Source: Tubiluchus corallicola (Eukaryota; Priapulida; Priapulimorpha; Priapulimorphida; Tubiluchidae). Taken from it: 64,000 nucleotides of DNA. The notes beneath the pieces were generated by a model. The model searched no databases. It worked only from the letters and a program-made list of their open reading frames with translations, and was not told where the DNA came from. A program made the position numbers and the translations under genes. Position 1 is the stretch's first letter; each line of letters opens with the position of its first letter. The stretch covers positions 1-64,000 of the forward strand of contig JAQGDQ010000150.1 of NCBI GenBank assembly GCA_030141605.1, written 5' to 3'. Positions 26,657 to 55,100 of this stretch are shown here, in pieces.

Positions 26657-29600
26657 GTGAGTATGACACTGTGAACTGTAATATTTTAGCAATGTAGGCC
26701 TATGGCTGAGAAATTGACAAACCGAGAGAGCTTTGGTGACGCAGAGACAGTTATATGCATAATGATTAAAGCTGTTTAATTAATTTTAAATTGCATTTTC
26801 GCATCATAGCATGATTCAATCGAGTTGACATTAGGTAGAATGATTAGCTAGGATGTCCTTGATTCAAAATTAGGAATGGCTAGCCATTTTCTGACCAGTT
26901 AATTAATTAGAGCTGTTTATGCAATTAATTTTAAATTGATTTAAATTGCATATTCCTATGATATTAACTGATCATGGTAATGATCATGATATGATATGAA
27001 TGAGTTGAAAGTAGCTAGAGTGATTAACTAGGATAGTTTGGTTCAAAATGAAAAAATTGTGTCAATTCGTTAATTGGTCAAATAACCAGAGTTGTTTAAT
27101 GAATTGATTTTAAATTGAGTTAAATTGCATGCTTTCATGTTCCGATCGAGTTGAACTTTGATAGGGGTTATTAGGTGGGATGTCTTAGGTTCAAAACAAA
27201 AAATTGTAGGATTTTATTAGTTAGTCCATTAACTGTAGCTGTTTAATTAGTTAATTTTAAATTGTTTTAAATTGCTTATTTCCGTGAAACAATCGAATTT
27301 AAATTTGGCAAGATGCTCAGCAAGGATGTCCTTGTTTCGAAAATAAACGAAAGATTGGTATACTGCAGTATATGCAGTACGTGAAAGTAAGAAGTGATTT
27401 AAACCTAGAGTGACCTAGATTTATTTTCTGTCACTTTAAACATCTTAGAGTTGCATGTTGGAAGATGAATAAGAAATGATGTACTAATAATACAAAGAAA
27501 ATTCGAAAGACTGAAAATGCGAAAAAGTTGGGAAAAGTTGGGACCATCTGCCTTAATCACTAAGTCACTGCATCTCCAAATGTTCAAGGCTGTCCAAAGT
27601 TCAGACCTTTTAGCTGGTATTTCCAGGATTAAATCACTCACGCTAGGACGATTCTAACTAATTAGATTAATTATAAGTAACTTTGAAGTAGGTATTTCCG
27701 TAGTGATTAATTAATAATTATCATTGTTATAATGTTAATGTTAAGATTTTTATAGATAAAAACAAACGGTAAAATTACCAGTGATTGTATACACTTAGCC
27801 CGATCAATTAATTTAACATTTTAACTTTAATTTTCTTACCTCAAAAAAGACATTTGACTTCAATAATGACAGTTTTTTCACACGGTTATTACTTTCTATT
27901 CGTTATTTAGGACTACCTGTACAAGAACGGTTATCTATCCACGGACATTCCATCTGAACTGGCACTGCTAGACTCATTAAGGTAGGCCTTATCTAATTAA
28001 AATCATTTACACTTTGGGCATAAACAATGTATTATTTAAACGATAAATTTTTTACCCCAGAATACTAACTGTAAGGAAAGCATGTCTGCTTGATGAGAGC
28101 ACATATCGCATAAATAGCATCTTGTAGATAGGTGATTGTGTGTGATAAAGCTAAGAATGGGGATAACAATAAAGCTTGGAATGCTTTAATATCGACAAAA
28201 ATCGCTTACTTCGTTTAAAGACAAGAACAAGATCCAGAAGAATAGCGATTTGAGTCGAGTCCTCGACCACTAGTTCGACATGAAGTTCTTAGTCGAGGGG
28301 TTCACCGAAATGAAGACGATGGTTAAAATATGCATTCCGTCAGTAGATACGAAATTTGCTTTAGTATATTCGTTCGCAGTTTCATGACGATCTTGAATTT
28401 AAAATGATGGGTGTCATGGTCTGTGTATGTAAGGGTAATTGTACGCAGGTGAAATGGTAGTCGCTAGAGAACTATACCCTGTGACTAGATCCGGGCGAGC
28501 TTCCGGATCTGCGAAAGTGTACCCTGTCGGTTCCAGGCAGTAGCTGAACGATAAGGTAGCTCTACGGGGTGCTCTACTTTTAGTGGTGTAATTGTTCGTT
28601 AGGGATGCTGTTTTCATGTACGTATATGTCGTAAGTTTATGATGCCAACAAATATACTAAAAACGTATTAATGGCAACATACGAACTTCAGTGTTTAATA
28701 AAAAAACAAGTATTTAAAAAAGAAAAAACAGTAAATCAATAAACATGTGGTTCCAAAAGTCAATGTGTGATTATGACCAAAATGAAACTATATCAACATC
28801 GTATTTCTGCAAGTATTTAAACATGGAACAAAGATATCTTGACTTTGACAAAAAAGGATCTGTAACAGGTTAACACTGGACTACGAAGCCTGTTTTCATG
28901 AATAGTCCAAAAATTGCAGTTTGGTTATTACTATGGTTAAAAATACAACTAATATGGACGAAATGCTTAAACTAAACTACATGCCACCTCGCGGAACGTT
29001 TGGCCAAACTCGGTGATTCCCTATGTGCAGAGATAACTCAGTCAAACACTTCGTAAAAAGTACGTATTTTGGAATGGTACCATTAAATGATAGTTACGTC
29101 ACCATCACAACAACACAGACGATACGGATCCATCATAGGGTTAACCCTGTCAGAGGTAACAGTTTATACTCCGGAAATTAATGTAGGAGTTCTAGAGCAG
29201 TTAATTGCAACACAGCTTCACCCACCAACGTAGTAATTATGTCCTAGCAATTATGTGAGAAGATACAACTCACATATTTGGCTCCTTGGTCTAGCTCACG
29301 GCACTCATGTGAAAAGTCCTGGTCGTCTGTTTAGACCGTGCCCATTTTTATCAACCACACGTATGATTTTTGGTCACTCACAGCTTAAAAAAATCTGACG
29401 TTTGGCCGCGTTTATCAAATAACACCTGTACTGCGCGTAGGTATTTCTTTCCGAGAGAAAAACTACCTGGCGAAATCAGCGTTGAAGTCTGTAGCATTGA
29501 CGTATTAAATGAAGAGGTACTTTTGGCTGGCTTCACCGAGCAGTGGTTTAAAACATCAGTCGTTGCCCTCCCCGGGGAACTTGCAAAATCCTACCTCAAC

Positions 29601-32600
29601 AAAAAGAATGTTTTCGTTTATATCACCTTTTACATTAAGTAATGTTTCTTTTGTTTTTGTGAGTAATATATAGGGACATCACACGGGTAAAAATCCAATG
29701 CAGTATTTGTTATAGTACATTATTATAAAGTTTTATGACAACCTGTTATGAATTGGTGGAACCTTTGGTCTTTTTGAAAAATGGAGTCGCAGTTCAAAAA
29801 TCCAACTCCGTCAGTCGATGTGGGATTCGAATTCTAGTATAAAGAATGTATGGCGTTCAATCCGCTGCGAAATGGGGGAACTTAAGCTTTTTTCAAAAAT
29901 CATGTTATCACTGCTATCTTAAAGCGAAATGGCAGATCGAAATTTTGTCTTTCAGTCGATGCAAAATTCGTTCTAGTATAATATTCGTGTGAAGTTTCTT
30001 GGCGATCCATTTTGAATTCACGGAATTTTAGACCTTGTTCAAAAGCAATAACAACAACAAGAACACCCAAATGAATAGCGATTTGACATACTCAACCAAA
30101 AAACATGTTATCCTCAATTGCATAGACCTTTTCCAGAGTTCAACACTAAAGTTTAATTCATGCTAAGCTGAGAAGTCTGTGGTTTGAATTAGCATCAAAA
30201 GAAAAATGTCGCTACCAAAGGCTGAGGTTTATGAGGCACTTTCAACTTTTATACACTCCGGGGACAGTACAAGGAATTCATCACTCAAGTATTTCTAGCT
30301 TGTCTGGAGCCTAGATATCATGCTTGTAATTTGTTCTTGCAGTATGGGTTAGTTTGACATCACAGTAGCAATGCATTGCAGGCATAAACGCTCTGCAGGC
30401 ATTGCAGCTTTTTTGATCATCTCTTCATGACCGCTTAATAGTCAACCGTCTGAATGAAGTTTGATCCAATGATGACTTATGGCTTTGATGTCATCGCTGC
30501 ATTGTTAAAACTACACCATTTAAGGATCAGATAGATGCAAAGCAATGTTTATTAAGAGAGTATTGGGCATCCGTATTTGTTCCTCATCTACGCCGATACT
30601 GTTAACGTTTGGCACAAATTCACTCATGCAACACATTGCTCTCGAGTTTTTAGAAATTATGAAGCCGAAAGTAACCTAAAGAAGAGCCAGGCCATAGACA
30701 AAGGCTTGACGAATAGCTCAGCCAGCCTGGAATTAGAGCAACCTGGAAAGCTATTGTAATGTGGTCCGGTAATTATCCGATGTACAGTGCCTGGCTTCCA
30801 CTATCTGGCGTGCAATAGTGGTTAATACCGCGACCCTATATGAATGAATGCTTTTGTAATGTATCACAACATAGCAAGTAGTAGATTACATATTTTATTC
30901 TGTCCTTATGTCACTTCTGTAGATGACTTTGCTTGAAATAAAAGTGTTCCTCACTATTTATGCAGTTTCTCTATTTTGACTTAGCGATTAGTTCTATAGT
31001 AAATTGATTATTACATGTATTGGCACTTTACAGCTTTTATAATATGAATTTATCTAATTTATCGCGATTAGCGTCCTTTTAAATTGTTTGTGTTTGCAAA
31101 TGTGTCTGTCTTTCGCAATAATTAATGTTCAATGACTATGCATCTGTGCATTGTGTTGCAGCAAATTCAGTGTAAACTGAACTCGGCCTAAGTTGTCTTT
31201 TATTTATTAACGCTGTATATTTAAATCTTCAATAAAGTGATTTTATCATCATGAAAGAGAAAGATAGATTAATCTCGTTTAGAAATAGTCTTACTTACAT
31301 ATATTTTAAATCACTTGTTCACTTGTTCATATTGTACTTTTTCTTTCTTTTATAATGTTTTAATTGTCATTTTTGTGTACTAATTTTTAGTTACCCTTTA
31401 AATTTGTAAATATTTTGAACGCAGTACACTGAGAACAGGGAAAGTCATGTACGACACAATGTACTAAAAATGACCGACTGTCCTGCAAAAGATGAAACCA
31501 TAAAAAAATAAGTAAGAAAGAAAGAAAGAAAAGGAAAAATAAACAAAGGAATAAATATTATATGAGTGAATAAGTGAAAGTTGGAAAAGGTGTGTGAAGA
31601 CAAGGCAGTGTAATGGCATATACATACACTAAATAACAAAACCATAATTGTTATGACAAATTTCTTTAACTTTTTAGGGTTTTTCAACGTTCAAAAAATC
31701 TGCGAGAAACGGGTGAATTGGATATTTTTACTCTTGGCGCCATGCATGAGTACAGGTTTGTTATATAATAATAGTTTTCACAAATGGTTGGATGTTATTG
31801 CATACTCTACTTGTAATAAAATACAAGAAAGTGCGCACATGTACTTATTTTGTGATTTCTTCATTAACTTACTTATCATTAATAATATTACACTAAAGTA
31901 AATTGTTTGTAATCAGTAGAAGGGTAATTGTATGAAGTATTTCATATTCGCAAACAGATGAGCTAGCCGGTTATACACCTTAACAGGTAGTCTCATTGAA
32001 ACACACGCACGCACACAAACGCACATTAAAATATATGCATATGTACATTACTGCAAACTTGTTACAGATGTGGCTATGATGACGTTAACAAGGCACTAAA
32101 GGATTCAGCAGGAGATACAACGTCTGGAACAAAATTTAGTGACGAAAAGGGTTTCGACGAAAAACGAGGCAATTTCATAAGCGGAAACAAAGACACTCGT
32201 GAAGGTAGAAGGCGTCAACGTAGGAGGCGACGAAATAGAAATAGTAAGGAACTAGTTATAGGCCTGTTAGTAAGTGTGAAATCTATACTGCACGACGTCA
32301 TCGCATTTAATAGTACGCCTTTTTTTCATTATCTCAATTTATCTGTAATGTTAAGATGCTAACATACTTTATAATATATAGACCTACACCTGTTTCTTAG
32401 TGTAAGGCAAATTTTCATTAATAATAGTTAACTACGCTTCAAAAGAAAATAGCATAAAAATGGTGTCATAGGACCTTTAATTTAACTTTGAAATTAATTA
32501 ATTTGCAGTAAATTTTCGGACTCGCTGGTGGTTCATCTGTGATCTTACATGGGGTGTGCGGGGAAGTCCACCACGAGGATGGACAATTGATGATTTAAGG

Positions 32601-34471
32601 TAATAAAGGTTGTAAAATGTTCATATCGGGCAGCGCCCCAAAAATTGTACTGAAGTCTAAATTACAATAATATTAGAATCACTGCTCTACAAAGCTGATC
32701 ATTTTTACAGTGTTATGCTGCAATACCTTAGCTTTTGCTTGTGAAAGTTATAACTTTGTAGTCCAAAAACCTTTGCGTGTTAAAAATTAAATGCCGGAAC
32801 AATGAAGGAACTTTTTTCCTATTTGGCTACACTCTTTTGGTCTGCGGAAATAAACTTCTTGCTTCAAATTTCGCTAAATAATTATTATTAAGTTTGCGTA
32901 ATGGCTTCTTGTAAGCAAATGATTAATTTTTGTTTGCAGAAGTATCATGAAGAACGTGCTTGATATCTGGCAGACAGGTATTAATGTAAATGGTAGCATT
33001 CTAACTTTCCGTGAGTCGGACGCCCCGCGCCCAGATCTAATACTAGAGTATCAGCGAGGTAGACACGGTGATGGTGCACCCTTTGATGGTCCTGGCAATA
33101 CTCTGGCTCATGCTGCACTCCCATATATCAGTGGCAGACATGACGGAGAACTGCACGTGGACAAAGCTGAGGATTGGAGGCCAAAAACTGTATGGGGAAA
33201 GGTGCGACTAACAAGCTCACATTCCTTATCTGATAACAAAGCTAGTTTCTTTGGCAAATGATAAGTATTACGAATGATCAGCGAAAATCGCGTGTGTGAT
33301 AGTCTGCCTTATAAAATGTTTATAATTTCAGCTTATGGAATACACAATACTTCACGAAGCTGGGCATCTTCTCGGATTACAACATTCGAGAAACTTCAAC
33401 TCAGTTATGTTTCCCTTCATTGGCAGACGTCATATTGCAAGAGGACTCGAACTGGATGATATAGATAAAACCCACATCAGATCAAAATATCGTACGTTTT
33501 AGTTTATGTTTTTAGCCAAGCCATGATATTGTCACGTTTTAGTTGCAGTGAATTAATTTAATTATGGTGAGATATAATGCGTCATTATAATCATTAATTA
33601 GGTTGAAATTGTAGCCAGTATTATAGAAACATTAATGCATTAACTGATACTGCCGAATAAACTAATAAGTGAAATTTATTAATTCGTCAATAAAATGATA
33701 GTTTGTTTGGGGTTAATTATTGTTTACCCAACTGCTATCCATGCTGACTTTTGGATTGCCAATTAATGTGAGCGGGCCACATGATGGAAGAGAACGTTAG
33801 AAAATCAGACAGACGAATACATTAGCTGAAGGCGTAAAATAGCAAGATAATTGGCAGATGCCTGTTTCATCTTTGCCATCAAATTCCTTCTGAGAATAAG
33901 AGCTATACGCTCGTGGTTTTTGAAAGAGCAGAAAAAGCGTGGTAATATAACTTTAATCTGGTGTGCAGCAAGATCAACCTTCAAACTACAAACTGAGTGT
34001 TGTTAGTAATTTAACTTATATGCTCATGTTCTTCTTATTCTTCATATTCTTTTTACTCACTTTGTATGTTTTATCTTGTATTTTGTTTTTCTTACTAAAC
34101 TATAAGTAGAGTAGAAAGTTAGCAGCCGATACCTAAAATTGTCAACTGGAACTGTCCCTCATGACTCCATTTATATGTTGTCTTCAACGTTTATCTGTAT
34201 TTTCAAAATTTCTCTGTACAATAAAAAAAGCTGTAATAATTTATCATTTTGTCACCTTTATCATTCATCATCTTTCTCATTTTGTCTATTTTACTAAATA
34301 CGTTATCATAATTATTATGTTACATTGCGTAAATTTACGTTACATTATATTGCAGGGATAAGATGGTGTGATAACTTAGACCTCGTTCCTGTCAGGATAA
34401 GGCCGGTAGATCGTGTCAGGATAAACAGAGAGAATAGCCGAAATGTCACAGTGTCAACTAGATCCAAATAG
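26546..34471 (+). CDS. Matrix metalloproteinase gene A, whole gene
   Basis: The eight exons (26546-26656, 27911-27981, 31678-31755, 32068-32243, 32509-32599, 32940-33201, 33332-33491, 34356-34471) join to 354 residues. MMPs are secreted, zinc-dependent M10A endopeptidases made as inactive zymogens. Visible in order: signal peptide (about 1-17), propeptide, cysteine switch RCGYDD (Cys88), polybasic site RRRQRRRRR (134-142), structural metal motif HGDGAPFDG and LAHAALP, then GELHVD, the zinc motif HEAGHLLGLQH (His271, Glu272, His275, His281) and the Met-turn VMFP. All metal ligands are kept, so an active enzyme is likely. There is no hemopexin domain; the protein ends with a short basic tail containing WCDN. 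After activation only two cysteines remain (156 and 321). Gene B downstream is its paralogue. The switch differs from the usual PRCGVPD. Confidence 0.93.
26657..27910. other. MMP-A intron 1 with four tandem 150-bp units
   Basis: Four diverged units start with AGCTGTTTAATTAATTTTAAA-like words at 26770, 26911, 27090 and 27237 (the word is given in shortened form: AGCTGTTTAATTAATTTT). Each continues with a TTAAATTGCAT block, an ATCGAGTTGAA block and an AGGATGTC-TTGGTTCAAAA block. Two more units lie inverted at 34910-35200. The rest of the intron shows no gene. Confidence 0.8.
27911..27981 (+). CDS. MMP-A exon 2: propeptide
   Basis: Encodes DYLYKNGYLSTDIPSELALL then DSLR. The YLYKNGYL pattern opens the MMP propeptide (family: YLxKYGYL). 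It ends two bases into an Arg codon, donor AG|GTAGGC. Gene B exon 2 has the same length, 71 nt. Confidence 0.93.
27982..31677. other. MMP-A intron 2
   Basis: A GC-richer segment at about 28410-28620 has a 67-codon minus-strand frame that I do not recognise and take for a transposon fragment. About 29340-29650 has a 90-codon plus-strand frame (QWFKTSVVALPGELAKSYLN) of unknown meaning. About 30100-30800 is also richer in GC and unassigned. Confidence 0.5.
31678..31755 (+). CDS. MMP-A exon 3: propeptide helix
   Basis: A short 78-nt exon encodes VFQRSKNLRETGELDIFTLG then AMHEYR. It aligns with LYQAAHNLTVTGLFDEATQK in gene B and with the FQ-x(6)-TG-LD-x-T pattern of MMP propeptides. The correct frame differs from the longest open frame here; acceptor TTTTTAG, donor AG|GTTTGT. 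Confidence 0.88.
32068..32243 (+). CDS. MMP-A exon 4: cysteine switch and processing site
   Basis: The exon completes an Arg codon and reads CGYDDVNKALKDSAGDTTSG, then an acidic linker and GRRRQRRRRRNRN. Cys88 is the zinc-blocking cysteine of the zymogen. The Arg-rich run would suit furin-type proteases in the secretory pathway. It ends one base into the next codon, donor A|GTAAGG. Confidence 0.9.
32509..32599 (+). CDS. MMP-A exon 5: start of catalytic domain
   Basis: A 91-nt exon, phase 1 in and phase 2 out, encodes NFRTRWWFICDLTWGVRGSP then PRGWTIDDLR. It is homologous to both alternative exons 4a and 4b of gene B. Cys156 in FIC is the only cysteine of the catalytic domain. Confidence 0.92.
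32940..33201 (+). CDS. MMP-A exon 6: structural metal-binding part
   Basis: Encodes the helix VLDIWQTGINVNGSILTFRE, then RPDLILEYQRGRHGDGAPFD and LAHAALPYISGRHDGELHVD. The His/Asp set (HGD, AHA, LHV) matches the structural zinc and calcium sites of MMPs. The donor is AAG|GTGCGA. Confidence 0.94.
33332..33491 (+). CDS. MMP-A exon 7: catalytic zinc motif and Met-turn
   Basis: Encodes LMEYTILHEAGHLLGLQHSR, then NFNSVMFPFIGRRHIARGLE and ends IRSKY. HExxHxxGxxH and the following Met are the diagnostic metzincin features. In gene B this exon is fused to the preceding one. Confidence 0.96.
34356..34471 (+). CDS. MMP-A exon 8: short basic tail and stop
   Basis: Encodes IRWCDNLDLVPVRIRPVDRV then RINRENSRNVTVSTRSK and TAG. 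WCDN-x(3)-VP-x(3)-R is shared with both last exons of gene B. A polyadenylation signal follows at 34535. Confidence 0.92.
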
Positions 34472-35902: not shown

Positions 35903-38875
35903 CTGATAACTGATAATCTGATAATCTGAATTTATTTCACTAATGATTTTATTTATTTATAATACATCTATGAACTGAAGTCAAGAGACTTATATGTCCA
36001 TTAAAAACATCGTAAAACATATCGACAATGTACAGAAAGTAAAATTACTGCTAAAAGTAGAAAATACATAGTATATGGTTAGTACAATATAAACCCACAA
36101 GTAGGTGCAAATAAATTAAAATTGCCGGTAAAAAGATTAAAACTTGATTAGTACGATAAAACTGTATAATTATGGTAAAAAATTTACATCTTACATCATT
36201 TATCAAATCACATATTTTTTAAAAGTTTCTTAAATTTATTCATATTACTGGCCTGTTTTATTTTACTGGGTAAGTTATTCCACATTACAGCGCCATTATA
36301 CATGACAGAATGTTTCGTAACGTTTGTTCTGCACTTAGGAATATGGAATTTGTGGTATTGTCGAGTTTGATATGAATACATGCTGCTATTATAATTGAAA
36401 AAAATGATGATACATATTAGGCGAAAGATTATTAACATATTTGTACACGAACAGGTTAGTTTGCATATCGATTACCTTGGGCATTGTCCGTATTTTCAAA
36501 TTTTCAAAGAGATTATCGGCATGAGCTCGATAATGCGAGTTCTTCATTAGACGGATGAGCACTTTTTGAACTTTTAACAAGCTTTCTAAGGTATCTGCAT
36601 ACGTATTGCCCCATACTATACTGCAATAATCAAAGTAAGGATATGCATACGTATAATACAGCTATTTATAAGTAGATAAATCTAAAATTTTATAACATTT
36701 TTTGAAAATTCCAACTATTTTACTAGGTTTTGAGCAAATGTGGTTGATATGATATGTGGTTGATAAAATCTCATCCAAAATAACACCCAAAAATTTAACT
36801 TTTTTAACATGACTGATTAAAGCACCATCGACTTGAATCTGACAGTTATCTCTAAGATACCGTTTCTTTTTTGCAGTAAAAATTATAAAATTAGTCTTCT
36901 TTACATTTAAACTTAATTTATTAGCCTTAAACCAATTCGATAGTAACATTAGTTCCTGATTAACGATTTCACAAAGAGAATAAACATTTTTATCAGACAA
37001 GATGAAACTAGTGTCATCGGCAAATATTACCGTAAATAATTTTTTTGAAACAGTTGCTAAATCATTGATGTAGATTAAAAACAATAGTGGTCCCAAAATG
37101 GAGCCCTGTGGGGTACCACATACAACGTCTAGTTTTTCAGAAGCGCAATTATTATAGTAAACAAATTGTTTTCTATCAGTTAAATAACTTTCAAGCCATT
37201 TGTAGCATATTCCTCTAATCCCATAAAAAGTCAACTTTTCTAGCAAAATTTCGTGGTCGACAGTGTCAAATGCCTTCGTAAGATCTATGAAAAGTCCTAA
37301 TGTATATTCATTATTTTCAATCCCATTAATAATTTTATTCATCAGAGTTAAAAGGGCACAAGCAGTAGAACGATTTTCGCGGAAGCCAAACTGGTATTCA
37401 TACAATACGTTCTGTTTATTTATGAAGTGTATCAAGCGTCTGTACATTAGCTTCTCAATGATCTTAGTATTGGTAAAACTAAGAGTGGTCGGTAGTTAAC
37501 AAATAGGTTACGTTCTTGGTTTTTATAAATTGGTGTTACTTTAGCTATTTTTAATTCTTTAGGTACTACACCTGTCAAAAAAGATAAATTAAAAAGGTTG
37601 GTAAGTGGTTCCGCGATTTCCTTACATACGGATTTAATAACATCAGCAGTTACGCCGTCATAGCCAGGACTAACATTAGATTTTAACCCTTTCATACCCG
37701 TTGTGTCCCGTGGGATACGAGAATATTTTCTGCCTTTAAAATTAATAAAACTGACAGTTATTTGATCTGTTAATAGTTATTTTGATTTAAGCCAATAACA
37801 ATAGACTAAAAATGGTGATAAAATGGCAAATTAAAAAAATCTACGTAGCACAAAAACTGCGCAAGGTACAGTACTTTAGAGACGACTTTGTACAAATCAG
37901 CATAGCATGAATACTAAATGTCTTAAATACTTTAAAAAATTATCAGCAATTGCAAAATGAAGCACATTTTATGCTTCCATTGAATCCCAATATATCCCGT
38001 GGGATACAGGCTATATTTAGCACGCGGGCACAGGTAGAAAAAAATAATTATTATGTGTAAACAAGTACTGAACAAAAGTACCAAGCAAATTTTTTTTTTC
38101 TTATTAAAAAAATAATTTGGGACTGAAAGGGTTAATGACATAATTAGCTTTTCCACTTCATGGGTAGTAGCAGGCTCAATGAATATAGATTCAACGCACG
38201 GGGTTGTTAAATAATCACAGTACTTTTTTTGCAAAATGGTGTACGGAATAGAGTTTGCAATATTACGCCCAACATTTACAAAAAAAACTATTGAATTTAT
38301 TTACTACCTCATTTGGGTCACTTATTTCAATGCCATTATGTAGGAAGTTAATTTGGCTATTGCCCGTAGGCTTACTTTTATTAATTATCTGTCTTAACAC
38401 TTGCCATGATTTAGATATGTTGCCCTTGTTTTCTTGAATTTTGGCTTGGTAAAACTTTCGTTCGGATAACCTTATTAAATTTGTCAATTTGTTTTTATAT
38501 TGCTTCTTTTCCTTTAATAAATTTTGAGAAGAACATTTTAGGCATTCTTTATATCTGGTACATAATATGTTTTCTTTTAAAGCTACTTAACAAACCAGGA
38601 GTAATCCAGGGTTTGCCTAGATTACGAGTTTTACACGGTTTTAGAGGAAAACACGCTTCATAACATTTTAACAAATTATCTTGAAATGACGTGTAATCAG
38701 TCTGGGCATTATTAGAGTCTAAAATATCGTTCCACGCAATACTTTGTAACATTTTTTTAAATTTATTTTTATTTACTTCATTAAAAACGCGTCTGTAACG
38801 CACGCAAGTTTCTTTTGTTTGTTTGCCACTTACATCTGCAATACAGAATATAGGGAAATGATCAGAGATAGTCGT
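35903..38875 (-). pseudogene. 5'-truncated LINE (CR1/Jockey-like) with nested MITE
   Basis: On the minus strand it encodes the end of an endonuclease (ISDHFPIFCIADVSGKQ), a linker (VNKFNSFFCKC), then the reverse transcriptase: YEYQFGFRENRSTACALL, FIDLTKAFDTVDHEILLEK, GTPQGSILGPLLFLIYINDL, the catalytic FADD at 37024-37013 and VKFLGVILDE. The C-terminal part (YPYFDYCSIVWG, LWNNLPSKI-like MWNNLPSKIKQ) follows after a stop codon and frameshifts. The low-coordinate end has AATAAATAAAATC and several GATTATCA units (about 35903-35930), as expected for a CR1-type 3' end. It is inactive. Confidence 0.92.
37683..38135. mobile_element. piggyBac-like MITE inserted in the LINE
   Basis: The 453-bp element (counting both target copies) is bounded by TTAA on both sides and inverted ends TTAACCCTTTCA. 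If one TTAA copy and the insert are ignored, the LINE reading frame runs straight through (IMSLKSNVSPGYDG). Inside are two copies of the near-palindrome TCCCGTGGGATAC (37705 and 37994). There is no transposase, so it is non-autonomous. TTAA targets and CCC-starting ends are typical of piggyBac. Confidence 0.9.
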
Positions 38876-42307: not shown

Positions 42308-42439
42308 ATGGTTACCATATTTTTGTATTTCACTTTGGTGGTCACTGTGACCACGACGTGGTGTTATCCAATCAAACAGGAGACGGATTTATCGTATCAG
42401 ATGCACGAAATGGGAAACGAAGTGCAAGAATTTATCACA
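42308..42439 (+). CDS. MMP-B exon 1: signal peptide
   Basis: Forty-four codons: MVTIFLYFTLVVTVTTTWCY then PIKQETDLSYQMHEMGNEVQ and EFIT. The start is strongly hydrophobic, with a likely cleavage near Cys19/Tyr20. The donor is ACA|GTACGT. A longer open frame here in another phase is not the gene. Confidence 0.88.
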
Positions 42440-45400
42440 GTACGTTTCATTTATACATTTTGCTAATAAGAATTATTGATTATGACAATTGCTTGTCAAG
42501 TTAAGAGCTATATAATATATTACATATTTTTGTGGCTTACTGAAAGAAGACTATAATACAAAACAACATTGTTACATAATGAACTATCGAATTGGTAAAA
42601 AATGGTTACGGGTCAAACATTTGACTTGCAATATAACCCTTTTGGAACCAAAATAATTTTACATAAAATAAGTTTGGTTACTTTTACATAATATTGGTAA
42701 TATTTATTAAAGTTTTTTCAAAATGTACAAATGTAAAAGATAAGGAAAAAGGATCGATTTTCGTCAAATTATTAACACAAATTAACGTTCAAGCATATTA
42801 GTCCATCAGTTTTCAGATAGGCCTATGTATAAAAAAATAGCAGGGACCTCTAGTGTGTAGGTTTCTAGGCCTAAGTTATGATTTTTCGATAATCAAAATA
42901 TTTCAATGTAATATGTACGTCGCGAGGTACATATAATTATATGCATCCAACTAATTAACTATTAATAACGTATATAAAAATGATTTTTGCAGGATGAATT
43001 AGTAAACTCGGGATATTTGTCTCATATTCACCCTACAATATATGAACTGCAATCATCATTAAGGTAAGATATTACTGCCCCAGGGCTGACATACAGGCGA
43101 TGTAATTCTTTCTTCGGCTACTTGGTAAGTTGCTTGGTATAATTTTATAAGGTGACAAGCTCATGAGCAGGACTTTAAAAGCTGGGCACAAAATCCATTA
43201 TAATAAGTACAGTGACTGTGCAAACAAGGTTAACTTATTGTAAAAGCTGAAATGGAATTATTAACAGCCACAGAAATTTATGACAAACATTATCAAAGTA
43301 CTGTAGAAGTGTAATATACGTGTAATATTCTTTCCGTTTTAATAATAGTGTATTCATTTAGCCACATACAAGTAATTAGTTACAAGTAAATTACTTTACC
43401 TCCGTCTACTTTGATTAATTTAACTATTTTGTAAAGTAATTACACTCTAGCATAGTAAACTAACATTTTGGAACAATTCCGTTTAATTAAGAGATGTCTT
43501 AGTCAAAAGTGCTGTGTAGTCTAGTGCTTATAGCTTTAGACTTGTAATTCAAAGGTCCATGTTAAAACACTCATGCATTTTTCACTTTCTGTCAAGCTTG
43601 GTTTTAAAACTGTATAATTGTAGGTTCGTTTCACTTGATCCGTCTTTCTGTAAAATGGGCAGTTCGCTTACTACTACCGTTGATGGTCATAAGTGTACCG
43701 CAACCTTGCTAATTAATTTACGAAGATTAACTTATGAGATGAGCGGCATAGATGCCACGGTTCACATTTCAATGTACTGCTATACTGTTTAGGTCTATGA
43801 AAAAATGGACAGAACAGTATGGCACAGAAGCTATCCTGAAAGAGATTTACTTGCCACCGCTCATGTGCTCAAGGCAACTTTGTGGTTGTCTTGTACTGTA
43901 ACCCTATTTTTGCAGTCACTGCAACTTACTATAAAGGATTTAGTGCCCAGCTTTGATGATCGGGTGATAAAGTCCTGCTAACGAGCTTGCTATATACTAT
44001 AAGCATTTAGCTACTTCTTTCTTCTTTAATTTGGCTAAAATTTGAACATAAAATTTAGAGTTTACCGAAATTTAGAGGTTACCACAAGAACTATGTCACG
44101 TAAACTACATACAACTCACGGTACCACTTTCAATCCCGTTTATTACTTGCTCCCCGTGTACTAAGCTAGATAGTAAGGGTTACACCGTTTTCTAGCTCCG
44201 TCGTACTTCTAAGCAGGCAAACTTAAAACCAATATTAATTTACATATCAACAAACCTTTCTGATTTTTAGTTGACATTGCACGTTCTGTCGCGCTTACAT
44301 CCAGATACATATACACATGAAGGTCTTAAATTTCCCATTACGCGAAATAAAGTTATAGAAGGTTTCTAATGAGTAGCTATTTCTTTTAGATTAATCTGAA
44401 TTTTTTTAACTTTTCAGGCTATATCAAGCAGCGCATAATTTAACAGTGACAGGCCTTTTTGATGAAGCCACACAAAAGAAAATGCATAGGTTCGGCTGTG
44501 GAGATAAAGATCTTGGTGAAATGCCACTAATAGTGCCAGGCAGGAGACAGCGAATGAAGCGACAAACTGGAAAAGCATGTAAGATGAGTGGTTTTCTAGT
44601 AAAGAAATATCTACCTTGCACCTGTAAATTTTACCTTTGGTTCGGATGCAAGCAATTACTACTTGTAGATCCTCACAGTCTCGCACACATTCTCGTTCAA
44701 CCAGGTATTCTTTTATGGCTTGAACTCTGCGAGCTGAAAATCAATAGCAGGGCAGGCCTATTTAATGTGGGTGGTCGTGGCGCTATCGGAATCTAGCTTG
44801 CTATTAAAACTAAACCTGTAAGAAGAGACACTAAAATGGCAAAAGGTGAATCTGAATACATCCTACCTCGACGAGTAGCTTGAATAAGAAGGGTGAATGA
44901 AACTTCTCAGAGTGAACATTGAACTTGGCAGTTATCTATTCAATCACTGACCCGTCTCGCTGTTGCTAAACTATGGTTGCTAAGAACACACCATGACCAT
45001 TCGGCTCCACACTTCGCCTCCGCATATGCTTCCTTATACACAGACCTTTATAGAATCATTGTCTGCACAAATCACAAAAGGTCCATCAGCTAATCTGCAA
45101 ACATCCTTAAAGCCCCTCCCCCATCCTCGGAAACGTTCTTAAATAACCTACCTGTATCGCCACAGTCTTGTTATGTTTTTTTGAACAATAGAAAAGGTTG
45201 CACACAACCCTTTGTCGGCAAGGTAGAAAAGTGAAATGACATTTTTTTACAAATATTAGTTACCAAATTTTCGTTGTTGTAATTTTTGTTTCAGTAATTC
45301 CGTGGTCCCGATGGTGGTTTATTTGTAATTTGTCGTGGGATGTTCGATCACCGCCACCTAAAGAACGGACAGCCAGAGCAGTTAGGTAGTAGTGTGCACT

Positions 45401-47395
45401 GGTGGTGGTAGCATGTCAAATGCCATAGGGGCAGTGGTTTTATAGGGACAAAGCATTTTATGAAATATGAACTATGCGCAACAAATAACGTTAAATTACT
45501 ATATCACATAGATACCAACCTTGCAATGAGAATTCATTTGAGTCACATCTTTCCTACTTTACTGTTTTAATCCTATTATTCTTTTTTAGTTTATATATTT
45601 TTTATCAGTTCATCTTCAGAGTGCGAATTGTCGATTTTATTAAGGCATAATGTAAGCCCATTTTTAACAAAGACATGCACCCGTATTTTCGGCATGTCAC
45701 AAATTAGCATGTTCATTCTCTATTACTTCGTGAAATGTATGAAATGGTGGCACATTGGTGTACTGATTTATCTAGCCATCTACGTACCTGGCCGAATTGA
45801 AAATTTGGTACATTTAGGTCTTTTGAAGCTTTCAACAAGGCCGTTCTGCAATGTTAACACACCGTAGCCCTGACATTATCGTCCACATTAGGATGCCATA
45901 TAATGAGATATTAGAATGACCGCATGTTGATGAAATCTAAAATTTCGTGTATTTTCCAGTCTATCCGTTTGTGCGCTTGCTTAAGGCGACAATTACACGT
46001 TAAAAAATTAAAGATGGAGCTACATGTGTGCCAAATGCAACTCAAGTGTTTTTGCATGTCTGTGACATTGCATGATTACTGCATGATTATGTCTATGCTA
46101 AACTAGCCGTTCAAGATATAGCACTGGGAACTCTCAGCATTTAGTTACGGTAAAATGTTTTATGTTTATTTTGGTAGATGATTTTAGAAGCATTTATGAT
46201 CAGGCACGGTGGTGGTTCATCTGTGACTTGATTTGGGACGTTAAGAATGAGCATAAAACTGTCAATCCTGCAATTGTCAGGTAAAATACTTGTGACACCT
46301 TCAAGAAAATTTAAGTGACCATTGCGAGATGACTGAGCTCATAGACAGTGTAGTGAGCATTATTCCTACCTTAAAATATCTAACACTAATAGTTATTTTC
46401 ACAAGATACAGGAGCGACCAGCATACCGCTGATAAGTCACCTTAACGTAAAACCACACAGTGCTCGCGTGACAGTCACATATGAAACTGATTATTGAAAT
46501 TCCTCTGTTTCAAGCTGTTCCTTTCTCCTTAATCAGGTACGAAATGTCCTAATACGACTCACTCAACTAAACGAGCTACCATTGTTTTAAAAGCCTACAA
46601 ACACTTTCAAAGATAGAAATTGGATGTTAAATTAAATGTGCCAGAATTTCTTTTCAAATTTTCAATAAATCAAACTCTTATCAAACGAATCAAGAAATTC
46701 AATGTTATTCAAATACACACAATTTCATTGCCCAATGACATTAAAACTTTCAATGCGTCTTGGACCTTGTGATTCTTAATTTGAGGAAACTTGCAGTGCA
46801 AGGAGCATGCTCCAAAACTCCAATTGTACTGGATCAATCCCGTTAATTTCAGTACAGTTATACACCACAGGGCGTTTAGTAAACAATGCCAGTACTGTAC
46901 ATGAATTATTACCATAAAATCACTCAAACGCACATAATTATATTACACAGTTCACCGTTGAATTTTGATATCAAAGCTTACACCTTTGTTCACCCACACG
47001 CCCTTAGGCTGGGTGCTATCATAATAAATCAGTTATTTTCAACACGTTCAAAGGTAACAATGATTTTAGTCAACGAATTACTAATAATTCGTCTCTGGTT
47101 TTCGATCTAGCATTTTGCATCAGAAAAGTAAAACGTTTCACGAAATTAAATCTAGAGCACATTTAAATGTAAATGTATTCATCAAGCACATTTCACACAA
47201 AGTGAATCGAACTTGATTTTCTTGGACAAGTGTAATAATCAGACATTTCAGTTTGCAAGAAAACACGAAATTAGGGCAATCGTATGGTATACAGTGTTAC
47301 TATCATTCTTTTAATTACACATAGCATTTTATGAAACCAAAAAAGCTTACTGACTGATTATTTGTTTACAAATTGCTGCTAATCACGGGTCCCGC

Positions 47396-47475
<80 letters not shown>

Positions 47476-47790
47476 TTCCAAGGTCGCCCCCAGCTTTAGT
47501 TTCTGACCTTTAACGTCAAGTAAACGTTTAAACATCACCGAGTGCTCAATCATTTATATCATGGGTAGCTCACTGAAAATAGCGCATGTGAATTAAGTTT
47601 TAATTGGCTAAGCACAACCGTTTAGAAAACGAAGATAACACACGCTTTTGGAAGAAAATGGACACGCGTGCTCGTGTCCGCCCACGCGCACGAGGATACA
47701 CGTATTATGTGGCCGGTTCTTTAGTATAGAATGATATTTGTTAATATAATATAATAATAAAACTCTTTATTGCATATGTCATATAACAGC

Positions 47791-47841
<51 letters not shown>

Positions 47842-50800
47842 TACATGCTTACCACCATGTACAAGATAAAAGTTTAAAAAAATGCATAAAAGACGTATTG
47901 TCTCTCAGTAATACACAAGAACGTCATTGAAACCTGTTGATATGATGACTGTTCGCGAAGCTTTTTTAGTATGTAATATGAGATTATATTTTATTTAGTG
48001 CACAAAGGCTGCCTACTCATAATTATATAGTTTCTTTATAAACCTTAATTGATGTAGGTTGTTTTATACAAGTTAATACGTTCTCTTGTAGCTGCTTTTT
48101 AACCTGTTTTTATAGGATCTTAGCAGATTTTATTCCTATTAATTTGTATTAATTACTGCGGCTATGCAAACCGAATTGTGACCACATTCATTTTTAGTTT
48201 CTATGCGTTTAATATTTCGTGTGCTTGTATTTAGTTGTTTGTCCTTGATGAAATGCACTGAATGTAGTGAATGCACTTAATTTTCTAGGCAAATGTTTCG
48301 GAGAGCTTTGCAAAGATGGGTTAGAGCTGTAAATAATGGAAGAAGAACGCGGATACTGAATTTGCGAGAAACTTTCGACATGTCGGAAAACCCAGACATA
48401 GTTCTGAGTTTCGAAGAAAAAAATCACGGGGATGGAAATCCATTCGACGGAAAAGGGGACGTCTTAGCTCACGCCTTTCTTCCTTTCATAAGCGGGCGCT
48501 TTGATGGACAACTACATTTAGACAAAGATGAGGACTGGCACAGCGATACATTGGAAGGACAATTGATGTCGTATGTAATTCTGCATGAAAGTGGACATCT
48601 CTTTGGATTATCACATTCGAACAATTTCAGCGCAGTGATGTATCCATACATTGGCAGAAGACACATTGGTAAAACACTGCTTCATGACAGCGATATTAAA
48701 ACTATACGAGAAAAATATCGTAAGTGTGTCTTAATTATTATTTACTATGAAAATTTCTAGAAAAGTATTGCAAAAACACTTTTAGACAATGATTAATCAG
48801 CAATCTGTGATGTTGCGTTGCTAGTGCGACGTGATAGGATAACTTTAAATGACACAAGTTTGTCGCAACATTACGGTTTAGTAAAATTCCTACTACTGAA
48901 ACTGACTAAAAGGCTGCACCGCATTTCGCATTGCTTGATATTGTTTTTTGCGCTTTTTTGCATGTGAGGTTTAGGAAATATTCATTTTAACGCCACTAAC
49001 AATATTTAACACTAACTTTTTGGTGGATCTACAGCTAGGGTTTAATGGAGACGGGAAACTTTGGACCGAAAATTCTCGAACAGTCGCCAAAAAACTCTCG
49101 CGACTGTGTTTCGTCACTGTTTCGTGAAACCCTGGCTTTACATTACCACAAGACGGGATTGTAATGGCAGGGCTTCGAGGGGTTCGCAACTTCGGCGACT
49201 AGTGCAAAAATCGCCGAATATGCTCGAAAGGTTCCCCAAATAGTCGCAAAACATGCATGGGTGTTCGTCATGGTAGCCAGATGGTTTAGTTTCGGCAAAT
49301 TTTTAATATATTTAAAGGTTGATGCCGGAGTGACCTCGCCATAACTCCTCTAAACTGTCGTAAAGTTGTCTGAACATGCGCAAAACATGAACACATATGT
49401 CCAAGTTATTCGCTGCATTTGTAAACAATTTCAAAGCCTACGAAAACTTGCAGAACATCTCGAAACGCTTTTGAGAAGGCTGCGAAAATTTTACGACATT
49501 TTTCAACATTTTGGCGAACCTGGGTTGTCCTACACTGCTTCCACGAAAATTTCTGTGAAAACGTGGTAGAATGATCGCAATATATATGCGCGAATGTCGT
49601 GCACCATTCGCCCTAGCGCGTAAGTGTTGCCGAAGTCGGTAAATATGCGCAAATATATCGCAAACATGTAGTGCAAGTTTCGTCCGAGAAAGCACCAAAA
49701 ATTCGCCAAAAATTGTCGCCACTAGTGAAAGTGCTGGGAAATTATTTAGAACTTCACACAATGATTTGCGACCTCGACGAAACACAGTCCATGATTTTTG
49801 GCGACTGTTAGACGGTCGTGGCGAAAAAGTGAAACCCTGGCTTAAAAGTGTAGCCGAGTGCACAGCTCTTTAAACCCAGGAAGTTTCATGGTTAAGCGAC
49901 TCTTTTGCGACGAAAGTGCCACAAATCATTCATGCGAAGTTTCAGATCATTTCGTGCGATTTTCACCATTTTTGTGAATTTTCGGCTTTTTGTCAGGTGG
50001 AAAGCGTGAGAATGTCGTACGAAATTCTAACGGCACGTTTGTGCATGTTTAGCGATTTTTGCAGCACTTATGCGACAAGGCGAATGTTGCACGACATTCC
50101 GAAAGTACATTGAGATCATTTCACGACCTTTTCCTAGAATTTTTTTGGAAATAAGCGTAGGACAACCGAACTTTGCCAATATTTTTATAACTCTTTATTT
50201 TGAGATATATACTTGCGCCCTCTATTTGCAGGGACACACAGTTTAACAGCATTTGCATGCCACTTTTAACAACTATCTAACAGTACCTATGCTGTACTAG
50301 CTGTACATATATTATCACTATCTGCTTAACTTATATTGATATCAGTTACCTAAATCACTTGATCCAGTTAGATTAGTGACAAAAAATATCTAAAAAAGTT
50401 TCAGCAAAATTAATTAGAATCAAGTTATTACGATAAGTTAACATATAAATAGCATCCTGGTGCTGTAAAACACTTACAAAGTTTTCCCTTCTAACGCGAT
50501 TTAGGAAGTTACATTTAAATAGCAGATGATGTAGGATTTGCCTTCCCTCTAAACACTAGCACATATTATTTTCTGCATAACCAATATTGTACAGGAAGTC
50601 ATTACTTGCCTTGACCTGTATGTCAGACTTTCGTGTGGAAAAGAAATTAGCTTTAATCTATAGATCACAGTAACAGAAATGCCAGTCCAAATGTTTACTT
50701 TAAAATAATAATGACATTTTCGTTACCATTTCAAAATTGCTAGGAACATTATACCAAAAATCCCGCCATCTGAAACCGGGTATGAACTGCATAAGTAATG

Positions 50801-53800
50801 ACTCGTGATATTTAGTTATGATCCATTTTTAACTGATAAGCGTTGAGCTTTTTATTCGCAAATGTCTTGAAAAAAGTAAATCGTACCAAAGGTCAAAAAT
50901 CATATCACATCTTCCGGGTATTCCGCCAGTTAATAAGGAACATATTCCAGTATCATCTGGCGAAATGTCATTATATTCAATTTTGAAAAATACAGCTTGG
51001 GCATTTGTTGAATATGACGTAATTGCTGCCATATTGGAACTGTAACTTATGAAGAATTCACTTCCATTAGCTGATTCAGTATAAATTTCGGAATCATGCT
51101 ACTAAGTTTCATTACAATCTGTTACAATTGTAATAAAACAGCCTTGGGTTTTTTATGAAACATGTTCCAACGACGACAACAATACTAAAAAGATAAGTAC
51201 CTCTAGTTTTTAAAGACAATATTTCAGGACCCGAAAAGGCAAAAATACACTGAGAAGTCGAAAAAAGGGAATTTAAAAGAAGAGCGCCATAGTTATAGTG
51301 CTCACAAAAAACCATCAGCAATTTGTTGTAAAACCCAGCACAACACTAAATTAAGGAGAAAAGATTTACTGTAACTACAACATCAAATACCAAAGGGATT
51401 TAAGCATAATCCCTTACTACAAAACGAATAGGTAAGAATTTTGCTGTATTTTCAGCCTTGCGATGGTGTGATAATCAAAAGCATGTTCCATTCTACCCAA
51501 GAAGAATCGACAGAATTAGGATACAAAAAGAGCAAGAACGGATTCGAAAACGTACAAAAACTCGCCGAGGACGATCTTCGAAAAGTTCAGACAAGATAAC
51601 ACAGAATCGCCAGCCTAACAAAGAAGAATATAGCACTGAAAATCATATAGATCTAGACGAAAATAATGACAATGAAAAAGAGACGGACGAAATTAACGAG
51701 AGTAAAACACGTGGCAATAGAGAATCTCAGGAAAAAGAATTTAGTGAAAACAGAAGTACAAGCAGCACAACAGAAACAACAGAGGCTCCCACTTCATCCA
51801 CTTCAACTACAAAATCATTTACAGAAACGACAAGTGCTTAACGGCTTTATTAACAAACTGCAATACAGAAGAGTTATTTTGTCAAGTTACCTTATACCGA
51901 TAAATGACATTAGAAAGAAGGAAGTACTGTCCTTCACAACATAGCACTTGTCCTTGGATATCCATTTTTCCACAAATTTAAATCCTTGGTTTTTTCTCAT
52001 GTATATGTACAGCACATCTTGAAGAAGTATATTGGGGCAAAAAATATCAGTGCCAAAATATCAGTCAAATCCAAGAGGATGTAAACAATTGTCACAAAGA
52101 AGTGTTTTTGTCCATTCATATATTTTCCAAATAATTTTTCATGTCTATGTTTGGAAGATGATTGGTATTACAATCACTCAGACACATAATCTGCCATGCA
52201 AAAATGATAAGTTAAAAAGAACTTTGAACATTAGTAGTAATTGTTACAAAAATGCGAATTTCTGCTACAATGAAGTATCATGTTCCAACCTTCTATTCCA
52301 GTTTTGGAAAAACGAAGTGCATCATGTATGTCTATGAATAAAATATTGTGGCCACTTGTTAGAGATGACTTTGTATGGTTTACAAAACCAGAATTTATAT
52401 GGGAATATTCCATCAAAGTTTCTTTAATAATTGTAATTTTTATTACAGTTACGGTCAGTTGATATTTAAAGGGCCTTTTTAAGTCTGTTTTACTGATTGT
52501 AGGAAAAAACTGCCTAAAACCTGCAAAAAGGAACAATGTTGTGTTACTTCATGTATGTTTAACATGCATTGTAGACATTTATTACTTGTTACTTGTTAGA
52601 GATCTGGCACTTTGAAAATTTGTTCTTTGCTTTCGTTTTAATAAGAATTATATTATAATGACAGATGGACCAATTTCAACATTTGCAAAGATTATATTCT
52701 AACTTAATCACAGTAAATGGAGATTAATCTAACAATAATACTGTGCAGATTATGCTGACTTGCAGAGCTCGACTGCTTTTTAAAAGCTGCTTGCAATTAG
52801 TAATATGTGAATAACTGGTTAGTGAGATGCTGCTTTTAACAAGATGCATGTTTCAATAACCTGCAGTTGCTAACGTAACTAATACACTATCTCGCTGAAG
52901 ATGACACGTTAACATACGTAAGATATGTCAAAAGACAATTGGTAAGTGGTAAATACATATGAACATACGATATCACGAACCACGTAACACAACTTTAGTC
53001 ACTGAAAGGAGCAATAAGAAATCTACTTCGACTCTATTTTTTTTACTCTGCATTTTTTCCTATTACCACTAATTCCAAATACGTAGAACAAAGTGTATCC
53101 TACAGGCTACAAGTTATACACTTTACATAGCAGTGAACAATTATCATAAAAAATATTAAAAAATTTGGTAAGCTGACAAACTAGATCTGTTGTTAAAGGT
53201 TTCACATTGAGAAATACTACTGTTACCATTTGATTAGTCAGTGTAACTACTGTGACATGTCAGTGTGTCGCTATATACACTGTAAGATTTTTGTTGTGCT
53301 TTCAGCCATTGCTTGGTGCGATAATCAGCAACATGTTCCATTCTACCCAAGGCGTATTGACAGAATAAGGATGCAACAAAGGAATCGATACAAATACCAA
53401 CCAGTAATTGGTAGGTACTACAGCAGCAACATCAATATGACCACAACAGGGGATGATGAAAAGGCATACAATAATTATAATCAACAAAATGACAGAAATG
53501 CTGGAGATCATACACAATTCTTCAATCTTGATCAACAGAATGATGGAAATGCTGGAGGTCATACACAAAACTTCAATCATGATCAACAGAATGATGGAAA
53601 TGCTGGAGGTCATGCACAAAACTTCAATCATGATCAACAGAATGATGGAAATGCTGGAGGTCATGCACAAAACTTCAATCATGATCAACAGAATGATAGA
53701 AATGCTGGAGGTCATGCACAAAACTTCAATCATAATCAACAGAATGATGGAAATGCTGGAGGTCATGCACAAAACTTCAATCATAATCAACAGAATGAGA

Positions 53801-55080: not shown

Positions 55081-55100
55081 ATAAATGAAACACAAATAAA
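55080..55100 (+). terminator. Two polyadenylation signals for exon 6b
   Basis: AATAAA occurs at 55080-55085, overlapping the TGA stop, and again at 55095-55100. Confidence 0.6.

Follow-up and report, generated by a model that had tools for sequence, protein, structure and literature searches.

A tandem exon pair in a matrixin gene of Tubiluchus corallicola as candidate mutually exclusive exons

Two matrixin genes and the exon pair 4a/4b

We analysed the first 64,000 bases of contig JAQGDQ010000150.1 of the priapulid Tubiluchus corallicola (assembly GCA_030141605.1), hereafter the window, which is free of any N and carries two matrixin genes on the plus strand, MMP-A (27911-34471 as modelled) and MMP-B (42308-55080). 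The subject of this work is a pair of exons of MMP-B, 4a and 4b, which in the gene model are neighbouring internal exons between the prodomain exon E3 and the zinc-site exon E5, with surrounding introns of 716, 792, and 2008 nucleotides (nt). Both gene models were built from reading frames, splice sites, and mutual homology, and the coordinates are listed in Table 1. MMP-A is interrupted by introns within its prodomain exon and its catalytic exon (31678-32243, 32940-33491), whereas the MMP-B equivalents (44418-44578, 48289-48719) are uninterrupted.

The Pfam profile Peptidase_M10 matched the 4a and 4b isoforms of MMP-B at 119.7 and 122.2 bits, respectively (cut-off 24), with the 4b isoform scoring slightly higher. 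The sequence HESGHLFGLSH in the shared exon E5 fits HExxHxxGxxH, the matrixin zinc motif. E3 contains RFGCGDKD, a variant of the cysteine-switch consensus PRCGxPD that we take to be cysteine-switch-like, and RRQRMKR, presumably a furin-type site; there was no Pfam prodomain match at an E value of 0.001, and no hemopexin domain was found among the Pfam matches of MMP-B. Judged from these motifs, MMP-B is probably a matrixin that is secreted, activated by furin, and devoid of a hemopexin domain.

A preliminary description of this DNA had given 4a and 4b as exons of 91 and 103 nt (both 3n+1) that are entered in phase 1, left in phase 2, and share the core RWWFIC-x-L-x-W-D-V; their coordinates, lengths, phases, and core were all reproduced from the sequence. 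Counting the split first codon, the exons comprise 30 and 34 codons, a difference within the default 20-residue limit for exclusive exons. In silico splicing bore out the further claim that inclusion of both exons or of neither breaks the frame: E1-E2-E3-4a-E5-L1 was open over 423 residues, the 4b version over 427 residues, and 4a with the other last exon, L2, gave 886 residues, whereas a message with both 4a and 4b stopped after residue 152 and a message without either stopped after residue 135.

All boundaries showed GT-AG, and the claim that both exons have usable splice sites agreed with these dinucleotides and with scores from our own consensus matrix, the 4a donor being weak. The acceptors of 4a and 4b ranked at the 98.1 and 97.7 percentiles among 3500 plus-strand AG sites of the window, and the donors at the 84.4 and 97.4 percentiles among 3528 plus-strand GT sites. 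Two alternative sites were rejected as main sites on their scores, namely an in-frame 4b acceptor at 46145 (score -4.02; the site at 46178 scores 3.66) and a 4a donor at 45388 (score -4.3; the modelled donor scores -0.98).

Homology between 4a and 4b, as the preliminary description had proposed, was upheld by six-frame searches, shuffles, and a phase-restricted scan, which led us to reject a chance match. When all six frames of the window were searched with single sequences, 4a, 4b, and MMP-A exon 4 each retrieved the other two at E values of 2e-8 to 4e-6, the next match having an E value of 0.31. The peptide alignment of 4a and 4b scored 67, compared with a maximum of 39 among 2000 shuffles, and amounted to 0.31-0.35 of the self score in one calculation and 0.33-0.37 in another (the threshold in the literature is 15%), fractions calculated with our own gap costs and not by WebScipio itself. 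A WebScipio-like AG..GT scan for candidates of the right phase and length (874 + 992 on the plus and minus strands for 4a; 907 + 1042 for 4b) yielded scores of at least 15% only for 4a, 4b, MMP-A exon 4, and edge variants of 4a and 4b. Profiles of the prodomain, exon 4, the catalytic exon, and the last exon, which include the very sequences that they retrieve, found two copies each of exon 4 and the last exon in MMP-B and one each in MMP-A.

Table 1. Exons of the matrixin gene MMP-B and the features of MMP-A compared with them (window coordinates)
Feature	Position	Strand	Description
MMP-B exon 1 (E1)	42308..42439	+	Start codon and signal-peptide-like stretch (by eye); open in the in silico splice
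MMP-B exon 2 (E2)	42993..43063	+	Prodomain; the same profile matches MMP-A 27911-27981
MMP-B exon 3 (E3)	44418..44578	+	Prodomain; RFGCGDKD and RRQRMKR; ends in phase 1
MMP-B exon 4a	45295..45385	+	91 nt; LIPWSRWWFICNLSWDVRSPPPKERTARAVR; alternative to 4b
MMP-B exon 4b	46178..46280	+	103 nt; YDFRSIYDQARWWFICDLIWDVKNEHKTVNPAIVR; alternative to 4a
MMP-B exon 5 (E5)	48289..48719	+	Remaining catalytic domain with zinc motif HESGHLFGLSH; no cysteine
MMP-B last exon L1	51456..51841	+	Starts (P)LRWCDNQKHVPFYPRRIDRIR; 129 codons including split first codon and stop; AATAAA at 52337
MMP-B last exon L2	53306..55080	+	Starts (P)IAWCDNQQHVPFYPRRIDRIR; 592 codons including split first codon and stop; 51-bp repeats; AATAAA at 55095
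MMP-A exon 4 (single)	32509..32599	+	91 nt; phases as in 4a and 4b; closest comparison
MMP-A gene as modelled	27911..34471	+	7 exons; model starts after the first exon

Age of the duplication and exon 4 in the matrixin family

Of the 36 nucleotides in the 12-codon core, 9 differ between 4a and 4b, and 10 of the 12 residues are identical. This corresponds to 5.5 changes on 5.8 synonymous sites, which are saturated, compared with 3.5 changes on 30.2 nonsynonymous sites; when nine changes were placed at random, at least 10 residues were left unchanged in only 3 of 20000 draws. The core values of 4a and of 4b against MMP-A exon 4 resemble those between 4a and 4b. From RWW to the exon end, the comparison of 4a with MMP-A was unsaturated (synonymous divergence, dS, of 1.62) and the other two pairs were saturated, all on small numbers of sites. 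The intron flanks of 4a and 4b were no more similar than shuffled sequences (134 and 53 of 200 shuffles reached the score).

Because the intron flanks are unlike and the synonymous sites of the core are saturated, we conclude that the duplication is old, of the same order as the split between MMP-A and MMP-B. The saturation of synonymous sites alongside 10 of 12 identical residues also shows that both copies have long been maintained as coding sequence and retained a coding constraint, present-day expression aside. A recent copy or a haplotype artefact was rejected on the same two observations, the saturated core and the dissimilar flanks. Protein searches of the species' own genome (343.5 Mb in 2344 contigs) found 4a and 4b once each, on the contig of the window.

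To place exon 4 within the family, we used the matrixin exon matches in the same genome, of which there were at least 38, and fetched 19 regions of about 10 kb, 18 of them at match places on other contigs and the remaining one at a match to exon 4. The pattern [RK]W-x(2,4)-C-[DEN]-[LIFV]-x-[WY] occurred once in 10 of the 19 regions, not at all in nine, and twice in none, compared with one copy in MMP-A and two in MMP-B. A profile search independent of the cysteine agreed for the ten regions (E value 0.0067 or better), using a profile built on six of the 13 copies that divergent copies might escape; weak matches in L025, L027, L032, L034, and L036 (E value 0.32 or worse) were taken as chance. 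The prodomain exon, exon 4, and the catalytic exon were found together in seven of the ten regions (L010, L013, L024, L033, L034, L036, and L038), and since all three lie within the fetched piece, a recognisable second exon 4 between them would have shown. Nine of the ten paralogues have a phase-1 acceptor and a phase-2 donor, the only phases sought, that can be assigned to exon 4, and in L024 exon 4 is apparently fused to the next exon. Exon 4 is thus an ordinary exon of this matrixin family, duplicated only in MMP-B among the copies examined.

The strand core RWWxxCDLTW, or a near form of it, is present in MMP-A and the ten paralogues. RWWxxC was seen in exon 4 of the regions L010, L011, L013, L024, L025, L033-L036, and L038 (as RWKRC in L038), and RWWFIC, with I before C, was confined to MMP-A and MMP-B among the 13 exon-4 copies. 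C403 (L012) contains a near copy of the catalytic exon of C246 (L011), with two stops, and this is an apparent pseudogene. Counting from RWW up to the split codon gives 24 residues in 4b and in six of the nine paralogues whose donor could be placed, and 23, 25, and 29 in the remaining three; 4a and MMP-A exon 4 both have 25 residues from RWW and VRxPP-like letters in common. Before RWW there are five residues in 4a and in MMP-A, four to six in the ten paralogues, and 10 in 4b.

A tree of exon 4 (12 peptides, aligned by hand over 29 columns, with the C108 copy left out) grouped 4a, 4b, and MMP-A exon 4 (support 84/93), and the pairing of 4a with 4b within this group was weak (55/55). The alternative pairings 4a with MMP-A and 4b with MMP-A were not rejected by the approximately unbiased test (p-AU 0.478 and 0.38, respectively). 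In a catalytic-domain tree of seven genes, from which other genes were omitted as incomplete or broken, MMP-A joined MMP-B (89/93, not starred). A duplication before the gene split with later loss in MMP-A, a duplication after the split, and an exon exchange between the neighbouring genes are all possible histories compatible with these results. A scan of viral sequences found no relative, and a prokaryote scan returned one bacterial fragment with 39% identity.

Use of exons 4a and 4b and of the duplicated last exon

In a profile match to stromelysin-3 (1hv5), the exon-4 core was aligned to the segment KTDLTYRI, which we take to be the first strand by comparison with matrixin structures. The preliminary description had held that the exon swap rewrites this strand, which was not borne out, as the strand core is identical at 10 of 12 residues and it is the two sides of the core that differ: the lead-in before RWW has five residues in 4a and 10 in 4b, and the loop that precedes helix A reads VRSPPPKERTARAVR in 4a and VKNEHKTVNPAIVR in 4b. 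Exchanging the exons is therefore predicted to leave the strand core and its cysteine in place and to alter what flanks them, namely the lead-in that follows the furin site and the loop towards helix A. An AlphaFold model of exon 5 (three window rows) had a mean pLDDT (predicted local distance difference test score) of 40.9 and was not used.

We consider it probable that 4a and 4b are mutually exclusive exons that arose by tandem duplication of exon 4, with each working MMP-B transcript carrying one or the other. The exon would encode the beginning of the active enzyme and, within the catalytic domain, its first strand and the loop running to helix A, and the swap may tune activation, stability, or substrate preference. 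Catalysis itself would be neither gained nor lost with the swap, since exon 5, which both forms share, carries the zinc site. Both exons would be spliced in under a choice made by splicing factors, and wrong combinations with their early stops would be removed by nonsense-mediated decay. Steric exclusion was rejected as the mechanism because introns of this size are too long for it. The earlier claim that there must be exactly one of the two exons per mRNA stood in part: other combinations give no full-length protein, but "must" is too strong, as one exon could be silent or rare.

Several points weigh against exclusive use. The folding claims made above are drawn from sequence and not from structure, and the core on which the age and constraint of the pair are judged contains only about six synonymous sites. 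The 4a donor, TAG/gtagta, was the lowest of the 12 donors scored and lay under all 10 reference donors of MMP-A and MMP-B, so that 4a could be rarely used. Beyond the reading frame, no cause of exclusivity is apparent at the locus. There was no clear intron-pairing signal, as the best helices were reached by 1, 14, 4, 18, and 13 of 20 shuffles; the value of 1 belongs to the first two introns and the other four comparisons range from 4 to 18, in an analysis of one genome that covered, of the 2008-nt intron, 800 nt at either end. A duplexfold run, which pairs entire introns, was of little value.

A perfect TC run of 75 nt lies at 47398-47472 in the intron between 4b and E5, where it might be a candidate site for a pyrimidine-binding splicing factor; pyrimidine-rich runs bind polypyrimidine-binding protein, and runs of this kind are common.

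The weak donor of 4a and the 10-residue lead-in of 4b, compared with four to six residues in the ten paralogues, could instead mean that one of the exons is a remnant or hardly used and that the gene makes one enzyme in practice. We regard this as unlikely, given that both exons are open, have usable splice sites, and conserve their amino acids over saturated synonymous sites; a dead exon of such age would be expected to have lost its frame. Moreover, 4a is similar to the sole exon 4 of MMP-A, and 4b has the commonest length in the family (24 residues, six of nine paralogues).

The early stops in both error forms also fit a dose switch, in which deliberate double inclusion or skipping leads to a stop and shuts the gene down, so that unproductive splicing rather than isoform choice would be the purpose of the arrangement; exclusive clusters with frame-shifting joined reads are mentioned in the human survey PMC5740500. 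For such a switch a single exon would do, whatever its sequence, which leaves the working protein sequence of the second copy unexplained and makes this very unlikely in our judgement. Slimmer still is the chance that 4b with E5 and L2 forms a nested second transcription unit with its own start, for although the duplicated last exon can be read as the end of a second gene, the profiles give a single catalytic exon and a single prodomain set for MMP-B in the window, and the best prodomain match between 4a and 4b has an E value of only 1.6.

The last exon of MMP-B, which the preliminary description did not mention in this respect, is also duplicated. L1 and L2 are identical at 20 of their first 24 residues, and over the 20 codons compared 18 residues are identical, with a dS of 1.65 and a nonsynonymous divergence (dN) of 0.06. 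Beyond this start they diverge fully, the L1 tail being short, charged, and rich in Ser and Thr, and the L2 tail long and rich in Asn and Gln with a basic end; in L2, a 51-bp unit repeated 20.6 times in frame (53473-54525) gives a tail of 17-residue repeats rich in Asn, Gln, and Gly. Each has its own stop and a downstream AATAAA (52337 and 55095), which on sequence grounds makes L1 and L2 candidate alternative last exons. Because E5 is present once and the exons follow one another as 4a-4b-5-L1-L2, we favour two independent exon duplications over a simple duplication of part of the gene. When the genome was searched with the beginning of L1, only L1, L2, and the MMP-A last exon were matched.

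Beyond the furin-type site, the 4a/L1 protein contains two cysteines and no more, the first encoded by exon 4 and the second lying in the WCDN of the last exon; 4a, 4b, L1, and L2 contain one cysteine each. The exon-4 cysteine is present in 13 of 13 exon-4 copies (profile E value 0.0067 or better), and the last-exon WC motif in MMP-A, L1, L2, and the C1986 paralogue. The WC motif was not seen by pattern in the remaining 18 regions, so that either its range is limited or the exons lie beyond the fetched pieces; this speaks against family-wide pairing. We propose that the exon-4 and last-exon cysteines pair as a disulfide in MMP-A and MMP-B; such a pairing would explain why the exon-4 core is fixed while its flanks vary. 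More tentatively, and leaning slightly against it, we consider a two-slot cassette enzyme in which 4a or 4b sets the catalytic front edge and L1 or L2 the tail, with one and the same disulfide, stapling first strand and tail together, closing in all four combinations. If so, MMP-B would be a matrixin with combinatorial splicing both inside and behind its catalytic domain, whose parts are made interchangeable by a fixed disulfide.

Elsewhere in the window, a perfect 759-nt inverted repeat (1-759 and 3147-3905) flanks an exon with a cyclic-nucleotide-binding domain at the contig start and is perhaps an assembly fold-back at the contig end or a young palindrome. Reverse-transcriptase pieces lie at 36665-37495 (minus strand) and 5112-5408 (plus strand) and are of the long interspersed nuclear element (LINE) type by eye.

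Comparison with known systems

Criteria for predicting mutually exclusive exons were set out by Pillmann et al. 2011 (PMC3228551), where, on the fly X chromosome, 26 of 65 internal exclusive-exon predictions are described as already annotated and the features used as common to only 0.56% of non-exclusive exons. Of the exclusive clusters in a survey of human genes (PMC5740500), 60% are reported to include exons whose length is not divisible by three. Like the clusters from tandem duplication treated in these two papers, 4a and 4b are neighbouring, internal, similar in length, equal in phase, bounded by GT-AG, homologous, and frame-breaking if joined; unlike them, their exclusivity is predicted from the sequence, there is no clear paired-intron signal, and they belong to a matrixin gene. 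The terms "MMP", "metalloprotein", and "protease" do not occur in the main text of PMC5740500.

Volvox lsg2 (PMC4378016) is likewise an alternatively spliced metalloproteinase gene, and the paper describing it deals with mutually exclusive exons as well. It differs from MMP-B in having an M11 domain and exon skipping, and the sample gene for exclusive exons given there is a cyclophilin gene.

Drosophila Mmp1 (PMC5353688) resembles MMP-B as an invertebrate matrixin with alternative C-terminal ends produced by splicing, as L1 and L2 would give. Its splicing is described as confined to its ends, whereas the alternative in MMP-B lies inside the catalytic domain. In the same source, a tag placed directly after the furin site is stated, as data not shown, to have inactivated both Drosophila MMPs, which suggests that the region after the furin site, where 4a and 4b differ, matters for activity.

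The statement in the preliminary description that no MMP with such an exon pair is known held among the matches listed from the open-licence literature (titles and abstract openings), where no matrixin with an exclusive exon pair was found. Mutually exclusive exons are already a known kind of arrangement, and it is their location within a matrixin catalytic domain that is unusual. If our interpretation is true, MMP-B provides a natural pair of enzymes identical but for the surroundings of the activated N-terminus and one loop, and thus a direct test of the role of this segment.

The best PDB sequence match of the MMP-B catalytic domain was karilysin. Matrilysin has no hemopexin domain, and MMP-B is like the matrilysin-type matrixins in this and in its similar catalytic domain. 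Unlike them, MMP-B has a cysteine at the first strand and a cysteine-bearing C-terminal tail, and the exons for both are duplicated.

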